From Tannerellaceae bacterium (GTDB lineage: Bacteria; Bacteroidota; Bacteroidia; Bacteroidales; Tannerellaceae), in contig JAISDJ010000113.1 of assembly GCA_031264865.1 (NCBI GenBank), forward strand, positions 1 to 32,157: 32,157 nucleotides of DNA. The letters run 5' to 3'. Under the pieces are notes generated by a model. That model saw nothing but the letters and a program-made list of their open reading frames with translations. It did not search any database and was not told the origin of the DNA. Shown one piece after another: positions 5,615-27,661 of the stretch (its first letter is position 1; every line of letters starts with the position of its first letter). Position numbers and translations under genes: made by a program.

Positions 5615-7096
5615 TTATTTAGGCATAATCTGATAATCATTCTGTTTCAATTCCGGATTTACATCAACCTGTTTCTGTGGAATCGGAGTAGTGAGGTTTG
5701 TTTCATTGAGTTTAAACCCTTTACTCGTCATTACTTCTACCGCACGACCGGTGCGGATTAAATCGAACCATCGGTGCCCTTCGAAAGCCAGTTCTACACG
5801 GCGTTCGTGTTCCACAGCCAAGAAGAATTCATTTTTATCCGAAGTTTTAATATCAATGGGAGAGGTTTCTGTTGTCTGGTAACCGAATCCCCGGCGGCGC
5901 ACTTGGTTGAGGTAACCACATGCCTGCGCTGTTTTTCCATTCTGGTTCAGTGCTTCGGCATACATTAAGAGTATGTCGGCGTAACGAATTACCGGGAAGT
6001 TGTTATTACTGTCGCCGTTTTGATAAGGGACGTCAAAGTATTTCTTCACATAACGTGATTCAATCCATTCTCCGTTTTTACGTGAGTCGTTATAGCCGAG
6101 TGCCATAGAAAAGTCTCTTCTCAGGTCACCTTCTTCATAGGCGTTATACATGCCCATTTCCGGAACGTTATTACCTCCCGTTCCTCCTACCTGAACGACA
6201 TTGGCTCCCGAGTTGAAAGGTGCAAAGGTGTTCGGAAAATTACTTCCTTCTCCGTATCCGCCTTTCTTGAACTGAACTTCGAAAACAGCTTCTTTGTTAT
6301 TGTGGTTATCCGCATGGAATACACTGGCATAACCCTCATTATTCAATGAGCCTGCCGCGTTCTCTAAAAGTGCGTATGCCGAACTGTTTACCACTTCTGC
6401 CAGTTTGGCTTCGGCTTCCGGGTATTTGTTCAGTGTGAGATATACTTTGCCTAATAAAGCTTTGGCAGCTCCTGAAGTAGTCCGACCGATATTCGCGTCT
6501 TCCTTGTAAGAAGCAGGTAATGCTTCGGCTTCTTTCAGGTCGGCGATAATCTGTTCGTATACTTTTTCTTTCGAATCTATCACATATTTATATGATTCAC
6601 TGATACTTATCTCGTGCAATACCAGTGGAACATTTCCATATACGCGAACAAGATTGAAGTAGGTCAATGCCCGGAGAAATTTGCATTCCAGTTTATACCG
6701 ATCACTAAGAGTTTTCTCGATAACTACATTTTCAATACGATCTAAAACCGTGTTGACACGATTAATACCGGTATAGCTCATATTCCAGAAATTGGCAATA
6801 TAAGGATTCGTAGTACGGATATAGAACTTATCGAATTCGTCTTGATCGACTACGGAACCTGAAAGTAAATTGCGTGTATTGTCTGATGGGATTTCCGCGA
6901 AAACATACCAGTTGCCATATTGGCTGTCCTCCTGAAGCGTGGAGTACGCACCGTTGACGGCCATCGTAAATTGTTCCGCCGTTTGATAAAATTGTTCCGC
7001 TCCTAATTCATTTTTCGGTTTTAAGTCGAGAAAATCACTACAGGATGTAAGGCCTAAACACAAGCCCAATACGATTATTTTATATTTTGCTCTCAT
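5615..7096 (-). CDS. SusD/RagB-family glycan-binding lipoprotein
   Basis: ORF 5615..7126; likely start MRAKYKIIVLGLCLGLTSCSDFLDLKPKNELGAEQFYQ (lipobox LTSC) at 7096. C-terminal RYADILLMYAEALNQ...ERRVELAFEGHRWFDLIRTGRA is typical SusD. It lies directly downstream of susC. Confidence 0.97.
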   Translation of the reverse strand: MRAKYKIIVLGLCLGLTSCSDFLDLKPKNELGAEQFYQTAEQFTMAVNGAYSTLQEDSQYGNWYVFAEIPSDNTRNLLSGSVVDQDEFDKFYIRTTNPYIANFWNMSYTGINRVNTVLDRIENVVIEKTLSDRYKLECKFLRALTYFNLVRVYGNVPLVLHEISISESYKYVIDSKEKVYEQIIADLKEAEALPASYKEDANIGRTTSGAAKALLGKVYLTLNKYPEAEAKLAEVVNSSAYALLENAAGSLNNEGYASVFHADNHNNKEAVFEVQFKKGGYGEGSNFPNTFAPFNSGANVVQVGGTGGNNVPEMGMYNAYEEGDLRRDFSMALGYNDSRKNGEWIESRYVKKYFDVPYQNGDSNNNFPVIRYADILLMYAEALNQNGKTAQACGYLNQVRRRGFGYQTTETSPIDIKTSDKNEFFLAVEHERRVELAFEGHRWFDLIRTGRAVEVMTSKGFKLNETNLTTPIPQKQVDVNPELKQNDYQIMPK

Positions 7097-7126
7097 ACTT
7101 ATTATTCTGTTTTTAGATATTAACAA

Positions 7127-10100
7127 TTAGAAAGTCACATTCACGCCTACCGTAAAGGTCCGGTTCAAAGGGTACATTCCATAGTCGGTACCGGGAGCCA
7201 GCGAGTTATCCTGTCTATGACTTGTTTCCGGATTGAATCCGCTGTAACTGGTGAATGTCGCCAGATTCTGGATAGACATGTACACCCGGGCATTCTGCAT
7301 GGTGCACTTTTGAGCAAGTACCTTAGGCAAAGTGTAACCCAGTGTCAGGTTATTGATCCGGATAAAAGAAGCGTCTTCCACCCAACGAGAAGAAACGGCG
7401 TTGTTTTGTCCCGTGGTCAACGCATTGGCACGTGGCGTTTTACCATCCCCCGGATTTTCCTCGGATCGCCATCTGTTGAGGACTTCCTTCATCTGGTTCT
7501 GGTTTCCTTCCAACTGTGTAAAGAAACGTTTTCCTAAGAACATCACATCCCTGCCATGAACACCTTGCAACATTACACTGAGATCAAAACTCTTGTATGT
7601 TAACTGGTTGGTCATCCCCCAGGAAAATTTAGGTTCATTGTTACCAATAATGGTACGGTCGTCGGCATCAATTTTTCCATCGTTGTTTATATCGGCATAT
7701 TTAGCATCGCCCACATGCGAGTCGGCAAGGCGGGGGCTGTTATCCAGATCTGCCTGGTTCATATAAACTCCTATTTGTTTGTAGCCATAGAAATTTCCCA
7801 TCGGCTTACCGATCATTGTGATGTGTGTCGTTCCGGCGCCACCGTCGCTTTGTATCGGATCGCCTGCCGGACCGAGAGCAATTATCTTATTACGGTTCAT
7901 GGACATATTCAGATTGGTGGTCCAACTGAAGTCTTTATTCATTACATTGACAGAATGGGTCGTAAGCTCAATCCCCTTATTGTTCACTTTACCAATATTA
8001 CTCCAGGCTCTGGAAAAGCCGGTAATTGTTGGAATATCTACTTCGAGCAACAGGTCGGTTGTTTCACGTTTATACAAATCCAACATAAACGATAGGCGGC
8101 TATTGAGTATGGAAAACTCAAATCCCAGGTCGTATTGCAAGGTCTTTTCCCAAGTCAGGGCATGATTGGAAAAGCTATGTTGTGCTGACCCGGTGACAAC
8201 ATTCCCGGTTCCGGAACCAAATACGTAGTTTTGATTGTTCATCGTACCGATCGAGCCATAATTGTTCGACATGCTGTTGTTTCCGGTTAAACCAACACTT
8301 GTCCGTATTTTCATATCGCTAAGCCACTTGATGTTTTTCATGAAATCTTCCTGCGAAATTCTCCAGGCTATCGACCCCGACGGGAAATAACCGTAGCGGT
8401 TGTCCTTTCCGAAGCGGGAGGAACCATCGGAACGGATCGAGGCCGTCAGGTAGTATTTATTGTTGTAGCGGTAATTCACACGGGCCAGATAAGAGATCAA
8501 TGACCATTCATTCATATCGGAAGAACCGCTTTTTACCTTTGCATTATTCAAGGTACGGATAATATCGTCCGGAAAATCTGAACCTTCCACTTGGCTTTGA
8601 TTGTAAGTGTTCTTCTGAAAGGTAAATCCGGCTACAGCATCGATTTCATGGGCGCCGAAAGAAGTAAAATAGTTCAATGTGTTTTCGTTCAGCCAGTTGA
8701 AAACTTCTCTGTTTTCAGTATTACCTTTTCTGTCGGTTGAGGGAAGTGGAGCTACCACTCCACCTTTAGGAACGGTGGACGGACGGAAAAATTTACTTCT
8801 GTAGTTCATCATGTCGGCGCCTATCGTTGTCTTAAACTTCAGATTTTTCAAAATGGAAATTTCAGCAAACATACTTCCGAAGAAGCGGAGATTGGCACGT
8901 GTGTTCTCGATATCTTTTGCTAAAGCTACAGCATTGGGAACACCTGTCAATCCGTCGCCGGCCACAGCGTATTCAGCCTGCGAAGACCAGGTTCCATCCG
9001 GATTGTAAACAGGCATGAGGGCAGTGGTTGCCAATGCCGGGATGACGACTCCGTCATTCGTCCAGTGTCCCTCGTTCACTCGGTTTTGATCGATATAGGT
9101 CGGCGCCAGGTTGATCCCAACTTTCAGCCATTTGTTAAATTCACTTTCAATTTTCGCACGCGCTGAGAAACGTTCGTAATCGCTTCCTATGATGATCCCC
9201 TCCTGATTGAAATATCCGGCAGAGAACATATATTTTGTTTTTTCGTCTCCACCGGAGACAGAAACCTGATAGTTTTGGATAGGCGCTGTACGGAAAATTT
9301 CGTCCTGCCAGTCTGTTCCTTTACCTATGGCTGCCATAGCCTCCGGATCATCGTATATTGCCGGATAGCGATAACGGTTACCGGCAGGGCGTACTTCTAA
9401 CGGATCATTGGGCGATGCACCCGAAACACGATCTACATAATTATTGTTGAAAGCTTCCCTACTGAATTCTACGAACTCCTCAGCATTGAGCATATCCATT
9501 TTTTTAGTGATATTCTGAAAGCCATAATATATATCCAGGTTTATACTCAATTTCCCGGTTTTACCTGACTTGGTGGTAACCAGCACGACTCCGTTTGCCG
9601 CACGCGAACCGTAAATGGCAGATGCGGAGGCATCTTTCAGTACTTCTATAGATTCGATATCACTCGGATTGATAGAATTCAGATTTTGTTCGCCCAGAGG
9701 AAAACCGTCGACTACGTATAACGGGGAACTGGAAGCAGAGATCGAACCCGCTCCACGCACCCGGATAGTGGCAGCTTGTCCGGGAGATCCGCCTACCTGC
9801 TGAACCTGTACACCCGCCAGTTGTCCGGCCATGGCTTGTGTAGGGTGTGATACTTTCAGGTCTTTCATCGAACCGGCTGATATCTGGCCTACGGAACCTG
9901 TTAAGTCTTTCTTCTTAACAACTCCATAACCAATAACAACTACTTCATCCAAGATTTTCGAATCTTCTCTCATGATTATATTCAAATGAGTCTGATCAGT
10001 GATTTTAATTTCTTGAGTCATATAACTGATATAGGAAACTTGAAGAATCGCGTTTGCGAGCAAACCGGTAATGGTAAACTTACCATCCAGGTCTGTAATG

Positions 10101-10528
10101 CTTCCGTTAGTGTTACCTTTTTCGACTATGTTCGCTCCGATAATCGGCTCGCCTCTTTCATCGGTGACTATACCGGTAATTTTTTTAGCCGATTGCTGGC
10201 TTATCCTGTTTTGTTCGGAAAGGTCATCGCGTTTGATAAGTGTAACGTTTTTGCCAACTAATTTGTATTCCACGTCAGTTCCTGTGAATATTTTATTCAA
10301 AACATCAAAGACAGATTCATTATTGGCATTTAGGGAGACCTGCCGATTTACATTTACCTCGTTCTTGTTATATACGAACAGGTAATCGGTTTGCTTCTCT
10401 ATTTCATAAATGATTTCCCTGAGGGAAAGGTTTTCTGCATGTATAAACACTTTTACATTCTGCGAATTGACTTCTATTGCAAAAAGGGTGTGAAGACATG
10501 CAAACAGGGCAATAACTGTGATTTTCAT
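7127..10528 (-). CDS. SusC/RagA-family TonB-linked outer membrane protein with N-terminal STN domain
   Basis: ORF 7127..10585; likely start at 10528 (MKITVIALFACLHTLFAIEVNSQ). STN domain (SLREIIYEIEKQTDYLFVYN), carboxypeptidase-D-like repeat (ITGIVTDERGEPIIGANIVEKGNTNGSITDLDGKF), plug domain (DEVVVIGYGVVKKKDLTGSV, LYVVDGFP, IEVLKDASASAIYGSRAANGVVLVTTK). Confidence 0.97.
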   Translation of the reverse strand: MKITVIALFACLHTLFAIEVNSQNVKVFIHAENLSLREIIYEIEKQTDYLFVYNKNEVNVNRQVSLNANNESVFDVLNKIFTGTDVEYKLVGKNVTLIKRDDLSEQNRISQQSAKKITGIVTDERGEPIIGANIVEKGNTNGSITDLDGKFTITGLLANAILQVSYISYMTQEIKITDQTHLNIIMREDSKILDEVVVIGYGVVKKKDLTGSVGQISAGSMKDLKVSHPTQAMAGQLAGVQVQQVGGSPGQAATIRVRGAGSISASSSPLYVVDGFPLGEQNLNSINPSDIESIEVLKDASASAIYGSRAANGVVLVTTKSGKTGKLSINLDIYYGFQNITKKMDMLNAEEFVEFSREAFNNNYVDRVSGASPNDPLEVRPAGNRYRYPAIYDDPEAMAAIGKGTDWQDEIFRTAPIQNYQVSVSGGDEKTKYMFSAGYFNQEGIIIGSDYERFSARAKIESEFNKWLKVGINLAPTYIDQNRVNEGHWTNDGVVIPALATTALMPVYNPDGTWSSQAEYAVAGDGLTGVPNAVALAKDIENTRANLRFFGSMFAEISILKNLKFKTTIGADMMNYRSKFFRPSTVPKGGVVAPLPSTDRKGNTENREVFNWLNENTLNYFTSFGAHEIDAVAGFTFQKNTYNQSQVEGSDFPDDIIRTLNNAKVKSGSSDMNEWSLISYLARVNYRYNNKYYLTASIRSDGSSRFGKDNRYGYFPSGSIAWRISQEDFMKNIKWLSDMKIRTSVGLTGNNSMSNNYGSIGTMNNQNYVFGSGTGNVVTGSAQHSFSNHALTWEKTLQYDLGFEFSILNSRLSFMLDLYKRETTDLLLEVDIPTITGFSRAWSNIGKVNNKGIELTTHSVNVMNKDFSWTTNLNMSMNRNKIIALGPAGDPIQSDGGAGTTHITMIGKPMGNFYGYKQIGVYMNQADLDNSPRLADSHVGDAKYADINNDGKIDADDRTIIGNNEPKFSWGMTNQLTYKSFDLSVMLQGVHGRDVMFLGKRFFTQLEGNQNQMKEVLNRWRSEENPGDGKTPRANALTTGQNNAVSSRWVEDASFIRINNLTLGYTLPKVLAQKCTMQNARVYMSIQNLATFTSYSGFNPETSHRQDNSLAPGTDYGMYPLNRTFTVGVNVTF

Positions 10529-10560
10529 AATACGAAATATGTGTTTAATTTCGGATATGG

Positions 10561-10592
10561 ATTGTTTGTACAAAATATAATTCATAATTTTG
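10561..10592 (+). promoter_or_regulatory. Candidate Bacteroidota sigma-ABfr promoter, TTG-N20-TAATTTTG
   Basis: TTG at 10562-10564, 20-bp spacer, TAATTTTG at 10585-10592. Same geometry as the tRNA promoter at 27631-27661 in this window. It points toward the terminator-like hairpin at 10648-10680. Confidence 0.5.
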
Positions 10593-10597
10593 TATGT

Positions 10598-10680
10598 AAT
10601 TGCGTTAGTACTTTGATTAATTATTTAAGATCGGGGTTCTAACCCTTAACCGGTAAGTGTTGGAGCGCTTGCCGGTTTTT
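10598..10680 (+). ncRNA. Candidate small antisense RNA upstream of susC (DonS-like position)
   Basis: Plus-strand promoter-like sequence at 10561-10592 followed about 90 bp later by a hairpin plus T-run. No ORF in this interval. It lies opposite the susC 5' leader, between fecR and susC. The 5' end is estimated. Confidence 0.42.
10648..10680 (+). terminator. Rho-independent-terminator-like hairpin between susC and fecR
   Basis: aaccggtaagtg-ttggag-cgcttgccggtt followed by TTT (five consecutive T including the stem end). 12-bp stem with G-U wobbles. Confidence 0.6.
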
Positions 10681-10779
10681 CATTTATTTTTTATATCTGT
10701 ATCATATGCTATTAGTATTAGGAGGTTTGACAATAAAATCTATATAAGAATCAACGTTTGCAGAAATTTGGATGTTGAA

Positions 10780-11724
10780 TTAATTAATAATGATCAGATT
10801 TTTTTCTTCATCTTTTTTGTAGCTAAAATGATGGGTAAGCTGCAAAACATCCAGAATATGGTATAAGCCGTCTCTTGTCCGGAATTTAGCAGTAGAATGT
10901 TGTTTGTTTTGTACAACAAACTTATTGTTTATCTGAATATTCATGTCAAAATATAATTCCAGCTTTTTTAATACCTCTATCAATGGCTCATCAAAATAGA
11001 GAATGCCTTTACGCCAAAGAAAATAGTCGATATGTTGTATGGGAACGACCGATAGCTTGTTGTTTGTCAGTATCGCCTGATTATCAGGTGCTAGAGAAAA
11101 CACCTGATTTGTGGCATAGTCGGTAATCTCAACTTTTCCGGTTAACAGAGCAGTTTCAAAATCTTTTGATTGTCTGTAGGCTCTTACATTAAAAGAAGTT
11201 CCTAACGCCTTAATATCATAGTTGGGTGTAGATACAATAAACGGTTTGTCTTTATTTGCTTTTACTTCAAAAAAACCTTCCCCATTAAGACTAACTTTTC
11301 GTTTTCCTTTAGTGAAACGGGTCGGAAAATTCAGTGTGCTACCAGCATTCAACCAAACCTGAGAACCGTCGGCTAAAGTAAGTTGTGCATTTTGTCCGGG
11401 CGGAACATATATGGTTTGCATAGCAATATCCTCTTCTGTATCTACGAAAGACAGACGTATACAATAATGTAAAGCAAATCCTAAAATAAAGATCGCAGCT
11501 ATTTCTATTGCTTTTTGCCAGATGTGTTTCCGTTTTATCTTCTTTTGGAAAGGCTTTGTAATAACTTCAGGAACCTCATACCAGAAATTTATATCATATA
11601 AACGGCATAGCTGCTGATAATATTTCATATTTGCCTCATTGGCATCTAACCATTCCGTAATTAAACGGGATTGTTCATTGGTTGTACGTCCTTCGAAGTA
11701 TAATTGTAGTAACTTATCATCCAT
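10780..11724 (-). CDS. FecR-family anti-sigma factor
   Basis: 314 aa: N-terminal cytoplasmic domain, one TM segment (IAAIFILGFALHYCI), FecR signature (VPPGQNAQLTLADGSQVWLNAGSTLNFPTRF...RKVSLNGEGFFEVKANKDKPFIVSTPNYDIKALGTSFNVRAY), C-terminal DUF4974-like region. Confidence 0.95.
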   Translation of the reverse strand: MDDKLLQLYFEGRTTNEQSRLITEWLDANEANMKYYQQLCRLYDINFWYEVPEVITKPFQKKIKRKHIWQKAIEIAAIFILGFALHYCIRLSFVDTEEDIAMQTIYVPPGQNAQLTLADGSQVWLNAGSTLNFPTRFTKGKRKVSLNGEGFFEVKANKDKPFIVSTPNYDIKALGTSFNVRAYRQSKDFETALLTGKVEITDYATNQVFSLAPDNQAILTNNKLSVVPIQHIDYFLWRKGILYFDEPLIEVLKKLELYFDMNIQINNKFVVQNKQHSTAKFRTRDGLYHILDVLQLTHHFSYKKDEEKNLIIIN

Positions 11725-11788: not shown

Positions 11789-12337
11789 TTAATACAAAAA
11801 CAAAAAATAAAACAGAGGCAGGTAATCTTTCAGGGAAATACGTAGGGCTTTCAGTGCTTTTGCAATATGGTAATCGACCCCTTTTACAGTGATACCTAAT
11901 GCTTCGGCTATTTCTTTTCCGGATTTTTGTTCAATGCGGCTCATCTTAAAAACGTTCCGTGTTTGTTCGGGAAGTTCTTCTAGAGTACGACTCAGGATCG
12001 TTTGTATTTCTGTGGAGAAAATATCTTCCGGATTGCATCCTTCAAGAGTTGATATACGAATGGACAACTCTCGCTGCTGCCATTCAGCCATGGCTTGGAA
12101 TGCTTCTTCGTAGCTAATCTGTGTTCTGAGGTAATCCAGGGATTTATGTTTGAGTATTGTCAACAGCAAGGCCAAAGGTTTCTCTATGGTCTCCTTTTTC
12201 ATAGCTTCCCATAATTTAATAAAGGACTCTGTCGCTATATCTTCGGCGACCTGATCGTTTCGTACATACATCCGGGAAAAGCGGTAGGCTTTCTTGTAGT
12301 ACTTTACATATATGTCGTTAATTGTTCGATCTGTCAC
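11789..12337 (-). CDS. ECF RNA polymerase sigma-70 factor (Bacteroidetes expansion type)
   Basis: 182 aa: YKKAYRFSRMYVRNDQVAEDIATESFIKLWE (region 2), LPEQTRNVFKMSRIEQKSGKEIAEALGITVKGVDYHIAKALKALR (region 4). Confidence 0.95.
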   Translation of the reverse strand: MTDRTINDIYVKYYKKAYRFSRMYVRNDQVAEDIATESFIKLWEAMKKETIEKPLALLLTILKHKSLDYLRTQISYEEAFQAMAEWQQRELSIRISTLEGCNPEDIFSTEIQTILSRTLEELPEQTRNVFKMSRIEQKSGKEIAEALGITVKGVDYHIAKALKALRISLKDYLPLFYFLFLY

Positions 12338-27630: not shown

Positions 27631-27661
27631 TTGCACAAGATAAAAATAACTCCTACTTTTG
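27631..27661 (+). promoter_or_regulatory. Bacteroidota housekeeping promoter for tRNA, TTG-N20-TACTTTTG
   Basis: TTG 27631-27633, 20-bp spacer, TACTTTTG 27654-27661, 24 bp before the tRNA 5' end. Confidence 0.7.

Follow-up and report, generated by a model that had tools for sequence, protein, structure and literature searches.

Cao et al. (2016; cited in PMC7366714, PMC10994844 and PMC9723704) are the source given for DonS and other cis-antisense RNAs associated with PULs in Bacteroides. DonS is described as representing a group of such RNAs, 78–128 nt long, that diverge from susC homologues (PMC7366714), antisense RNAs have been reported for 15 B. fragilis PULs (PMC9723704), and 32 PUL-associated antisense RNAs have been annotated in B. 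theta, where antisense RNAs share this orientation and several were seen on Northern blots (PMC10994844, PMC7366714). In AT-rich genomes, antisense transcription can also be noise (PMC7366714).

We analysed a 32,157-nt stretch of DNA (the window) from a gut-type Tannerellaceae bacterium whose genome assembly comprises 4.69 Mb in 376 contigs. The minus strand carries, in this order, genes for an ECF-type sigma factor, FecR, SusC with an STN domain, SusD, a melibiase-like glycosidase and two sulfatases. As in the PUL of DonS, the ECF sigma factor and FecR belong to the locus, here encoded directly upstream, and the predicted RNA likewise runs antisense to a susC homologue, diverging from its 5′ end. 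From the comparisons below, we consider it likely that the plus strand of the fecR–susC spacer carries a DonS-kind antisense RNA gene, transcribed from a housekeeping-sigma promoter and pairing with the susC leader.

A predicted antisense RNA in the fecR–susC spacer

With the best susC start placed at the ATG at 10585, the predicted RNA lies between fecR and susC, entirely inside the susC 5′ leader (Table 1). Plus-strand nucleotides 10597–10683 fold into two hairpins at −31.5 kcal/mol with a z-score of −4.86, compared with −2.59 for the minus-strand susC leader. The second hairpin was the top terminator-like site in the 5.5 kb scanned, in which nine such sites were found and 4.1 were expected from shuffles. 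Another terminator-like hairpin is located on the plus strand at 10160–10177, inside susC. From the −7 box to the T-run the predicted length is ~86 nt, inside the 78–128 nt reported for DonS-type RNAs. A previous sequence-only reading had placed a stem-loop with a T-run at 10648–10680 on this strand, which the folding bore out, and its motif coordinates all proved correct when the sequence was read again.

Table 1 Features of the PUL and of the predicted antisense RNA gene in the window
Feature	Position	Strand	Basis or remark
ECF-type sigma factor	11789..12337	-	Pfam Sigma70_r4_2, Sigma70_r2
fecR (anti-sigma factor)	10780..11724	-	Pfam FecR, FecR_C
Putative -35-like motif of susC operon, GTCAAACC	10723..10730	-	Kept in closest ortholog; putative role
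Putative ECF-sigma -10-like motif of susC operon, GCATATG	10703..10709	-	Family consensus GCCTATG; putative role
Antisense RNA gene, predicted transcript ~86 nt	10597..10683	+	Fold z -4.86, model R2 match, ortholog conservation; predicted ends +/- 3 nt
Terminator T-run	10676..10680	+	Seen in sequence; T-rich 3′ side recurs in family
Hairpin 2, intrinsic terminator stem	10648..10677	+	13 bp, 4-nt loop UGGA; compensatory pairs in family
Hairpin 1	10604..10643	+	10604-10608 with 10639-10643, 10610-10618 with 10629-10637; one U-U mismatch
-7 promoter box TAATTTTG (TAnnTTTG)	10585..10592	+	Overlaps susC start codon; CATAnnTTT in 60/67 family loci
TTG, proposed -33 element (weak)	10562..10564	+	Inside susC coding sequence; in 4 direct orthologs, not family-enriched
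susC homologue, cis target	7127..10585	-	5′ leader opposite antisense RNA; Pfam Plug, CarbopepD_reg_2, STN
susD homologue	5615..7126	-	Pfam SusD_RagB

The closest named orthologs of the FecR protein are those of Massilibacteroides vaginae and Parabacteroides gordonii, and the direct orthologs of the locus encode FecR proteins 84, 69 and 65% identical to it. Across three orthologous PULs, identity to the window RNA reaches 90, 81 and 78%, compared with 74, 50 and 13% at the far end of the spacer, and the structure and terminator of the RNA are retained. The earlier reading had named a promoter and hairpin not conserved in orthologous PULs as grounds for giving up the RNA, and the RNA passes this check.

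A two-hairpin RNA family at FecR/SusC junctions

We sampled 30 FecR/SusC junctions, picked solely by FecR similarity, and a script detected the 5′ arm and terminator in 26 of them, not all fully convincing. In an alignment of 20 loci, 93.6% of cells were paired, compared with 39–49% in slid controls, and two-sided changes affected 13 pairs and 55 cells, compared with a shuffled mean of 16.9 cells. Hairpin 1 of the family consists of GUUAGUACU paired with GGUACUGAC, with compensatory changes, and hairpin 2 is the terminator. RNAalifold recovered the identical two hairpins from 24 non-seed sequences, located via a model and aligned without it, with a compensatory change in 16 of 21 pairs.

A covariance model from whose building the window and its orthologs were excluded (R2) matched the window at 10598–10685 with 61.6 bits (E = 1.8e-9 in the window, 2.7e-7 genome-wide). 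Searching the source genome with model R1 at a cut-off of E ≤ 0.08 gave 17 matches, of which the window alone had contributed to the seed; all lay antisense next to susC and/or fecR, 15 of them next to both. One match (L061) adjoins fecR only, its locus being cut by a contig end, and another (L055) adjoins a susC with a glycosidase gene upstream in place of fecR. At the latter (1501–1583, 63.1 bits), susC lacks an STN domain, the upstream gene is alpha-mannosidase-like and the CATAGGC motif described below is present. Sorted by SusC type, matches fell on 9 of 17 FecR-linked loci and on none of the 13 other SusC loci. About half of the FecR/SusC junctions in the source genome have no model match, and the RNA is therefore not obligatory. 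Six FecR/SusC junctions (L075, L089, L090, L093, L100 and L102) show a hairpin and T-run on the antisense side with no model match, and possibly carry diverged or different antisense RNAs.

Across the order, matches occurred in 18 of 119 genomes; 23 of the 27 loci examined adjoin susC and/or fecR, 22 with both. Among named genomes, P. gordonii has 15 matches, M. vaginae 7 and B. propionicigenes 2. The non-susC matches L107, L118, L119 and L129 were excluded from the family statistics. Across the phylum, few matches fell outside Bacteroidales, about half of those fetched lying at susC. Rfam searches at gathering and permissive thresholds gave no relevant family.

Several asymmetries favour the antisense strand. 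Read on the plus strand, the stems contain 84 G-U and 9 A-C juxtapositions, and a second count gave 179 and 11 on a non-seed alignment that was fitted to, and so leans towards, the model. In 67 of 68 loci the antisense strand had the lower folding energy, and the 8 nt after the stem contain on family average 5.4–6.0 T on the antisense side versus 1.8–2.1 on the sense side.

The promoter signal is confined to one element. The TAATTTTG box shares one base with the susC start codon, a register that recurs across the family, and CATAnnTTT at the −7 position compares with a mean of 2.0 loci in shuffles (Table 1). In the source genome, the corresponding AAAnnT-ATG was present at 12 of 17 FecR-linked SusC starts; its absence from the 13 other SusC starts, together with that of CAAAnnT-ATG from all 44 FecR starts, rules out a mere susC or general translation-start context. 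The sequence-only reading had further proposed a TTG-N20 promoter with exactly the spacing of a tRNA promoter. Its positions hold, with 20 bp between the TTG at 10562–10564 and TAATTTTG at 10585–10592, as between TTG (27631–27633) and TACTTTTG (27654–27661) of the tRNA-Met promoter. The spacing argument carries little weight, however, because TTG at 19–21 bp was not enriched (6 of 61 loci, compared with 1–5 at other offsets), and we rejected it as a family signature. The four direct orthologs that keep the TTG do so where it is also susC coding sequence. Across the family, the conserved promoter part is the −7 box only.

Beyond the RNA, a CATAGGC-like motif (GCCTATG on the sense strand) occurs in 54 of 67 family loci at a median of 18 nt past the end of the RNA model. 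In the downstream flanks of family loci, GCCTATG is preceded by an A-rich stretch, in the window (with GCATATG) at 10703–10730. We take motif and stretch together as the probable ECF-sigma promoter of susC operons linked to FecR. Leader lengths vary, since 291 nt separate one mapped ECF-PUL start in B. theta from its downstream gene (PMC11501099).

Comparison across loci establishes a conserved structured RNA of defined strand and position, tied to FecR/SusC junctions. The window RNA carries both family features, the R2 match and the TAnnTTTG box on the susC start codon. Conservation and compensatory pairing, along with the asymmetries between strands and the positional specificity seen across the genome, strongly support the earlier claim of an ~80-nt RNA antisense to the susC 5′ leader. 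Judged by this comparison, the antisense RNA gene in the window is genuine and conserved, and its structure is unusually well supported, although part of the conservation may serve the susC leader itself.

A near-identical RNA of ~82 nt was found in 35 of 42 Bacteroides genomes, one full copy each. Thirty Bacteroides loci were read, of which 16 were classed as FecR/SusC junctions and 12 as buk–pnp loci, with 2 unresolved; in six examples (L198, L206, L212, L222, L236 and L246) the RNA lies at about 1501–1582. Between the two classes, identity was 97.5% in the core, compared with 71.7% upstream and 24.7% downstream. Species that carry the PUL have it between buk and pnp. At locus L246, among the 16, the RNA is intact and lies between buk and pnp, flanked by a 35-residue susC piece and a 49-residue fecR piece as the only remains of these genes; the susC remnants at L222 and L236 contain stop codons. 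On the simplest reading, buk–pnp loci have lost the PUL but retained the RNA, whose function would therefore not be limited to cis, which suggests that some family members act in trans.

Proposed mechanism and rival explanations

We propose that a housekeeping-sigma promoter with its −7 box on the susC start codon would start the transcript ~12 nt upstream of the codon, and that the two-hairpin RNA would terminate just before the presumed susC mRNA start. With its terminator just short of that start, the RNA would be complementary to almost the entire susC 5′ leader. Without the glycan, the RNA would most likely pair with leaky susC leaders, blocking translation initiation of susC and/or triggering mRNA decay, and would thereby set a threshold for ECF-sigma-driven transcription to exceed. 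For its part, susC transcription would pass over the antisense promoter, resulting in mutual antagonism. We infer the expression of the RNA, the repression, its mechanism and the exact ends from the DNA.

Alternatively, the RNA could be made as a by-product, with repression exerted mainly by transcription through polymerase collision or blocking on the susC leader. The two promoters converge at a distance of ~110 bp and the terminator closely precedes the presumed sense start, which would suit such an arrangement. However, compensatory changes maintain the base pairs, of which collision alone needs none, making pure transcriptional interference insufficient, and one Bacteroides relative survives without any susC opposite. 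We therefore regard this explanation as unlikely.

Slightly less probable still is that the window RNA has its main targets in trans, in the leaders of other PULs, reached via hairpin sequences common to family members. GUUA(A/G)UACU and the terminator loop are indeed common to paralogs, and the Bacteroides relative was retained after PUL decay. Against this, the window RNA and its orthologs are 78–90% identical, which is not extreme, whereas 67 of 77 core columns are invariant in the stand-alone Bacteroides RNA.

The structure could also belong to the minus strand, as an attenuator or stability hairpin in the susC mRNA leader next to a fortuitous plus-strand promoter and terminator, given that the spacer is presumably transcribed as susC leader and that inverted repeats fold on both strands. 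The G-U/A-C and energy asymmetries disfavour such a sense-strand element, as do the T-run, present solely on the plus strand, and the tie of the −7 box to FecR-linked susC genes, leaving it very improbable. A chance pair of promoter-like and terminator-like sequences in AT-rich DNA, with which the near-shuffled yield of promoter-motif scans of the region would agree, is scarcely credible in view of the conservation, covariation, leave-out model score and positional specificity.

The antisense RNA pairing with the susC leader thus remains our preferred reading. Whether the Bacteroidales PUL antisense RNAs form one structured family acting in trans as well as in cis, with the buk–pnp member a general regulator derived from or shared with the PUL's own antisense RNA, we judge to be evenly balanced. 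With this family, DonS-type regulation reaches beyond a handful of Bacteroides loci: many Bacteroidales have members of a covariation-supported group that a model can search for and that Rfam lacks, and antisense control of glycan uptake can be annotated from sequence. The stand-alone relative offers a direct test of trans action to prioritise glycans.

Comparison with known small RNAs

MasB (PMC10994844) is an intergenic, trans-acting Bacteroides sRNA to which we considered the buk–pnp RNA alike. MasB is ~100 nt and described as narrowly conserved, whereas the buk–pnp RNA is shorter and widespread among the Bacteroides genomes; neither length, conservation nor Rfam, in which the buk–pnp RNA found no match, supports equating the two.

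FopS and GibS of B. thetaiotaomicron (PMC11697453) are, like the window RNA, small and terminator-ended, and FopS represses susC translation initiation (PMC11697453). The window RNA scored 23.7 bits against the GibS family (Rfam RF04182), whose gathering threshold is 115. FopS has a single-stranded 5′ seed and one terminator hairpin and acts in trans, whereas the window RNA has two hairpins and is fully complementary to its cis leader.

No DonS model was among the Rfam matches to the window, and a GH18 gene, sought for synteny with the don locus among the PUL genes beside five matches in one 5.2-Mb Bacteroides genome, was not found there. The match to DonS type that had been proposed earlier thus holds for orientation, place, length and the ECF/FecR setting (PMC7366714, PMC9723704), and draws on the description of DonS rather than its sequence. 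DonS belongs to Bacteroides, whereas the orthologs of the window RNA are found in Parabacteroides gordonii and Massilibacteroides vaginae. By these described features, including its similar predicted length, the predicted window RNA is a further DonS-type PUL antisense RNA.
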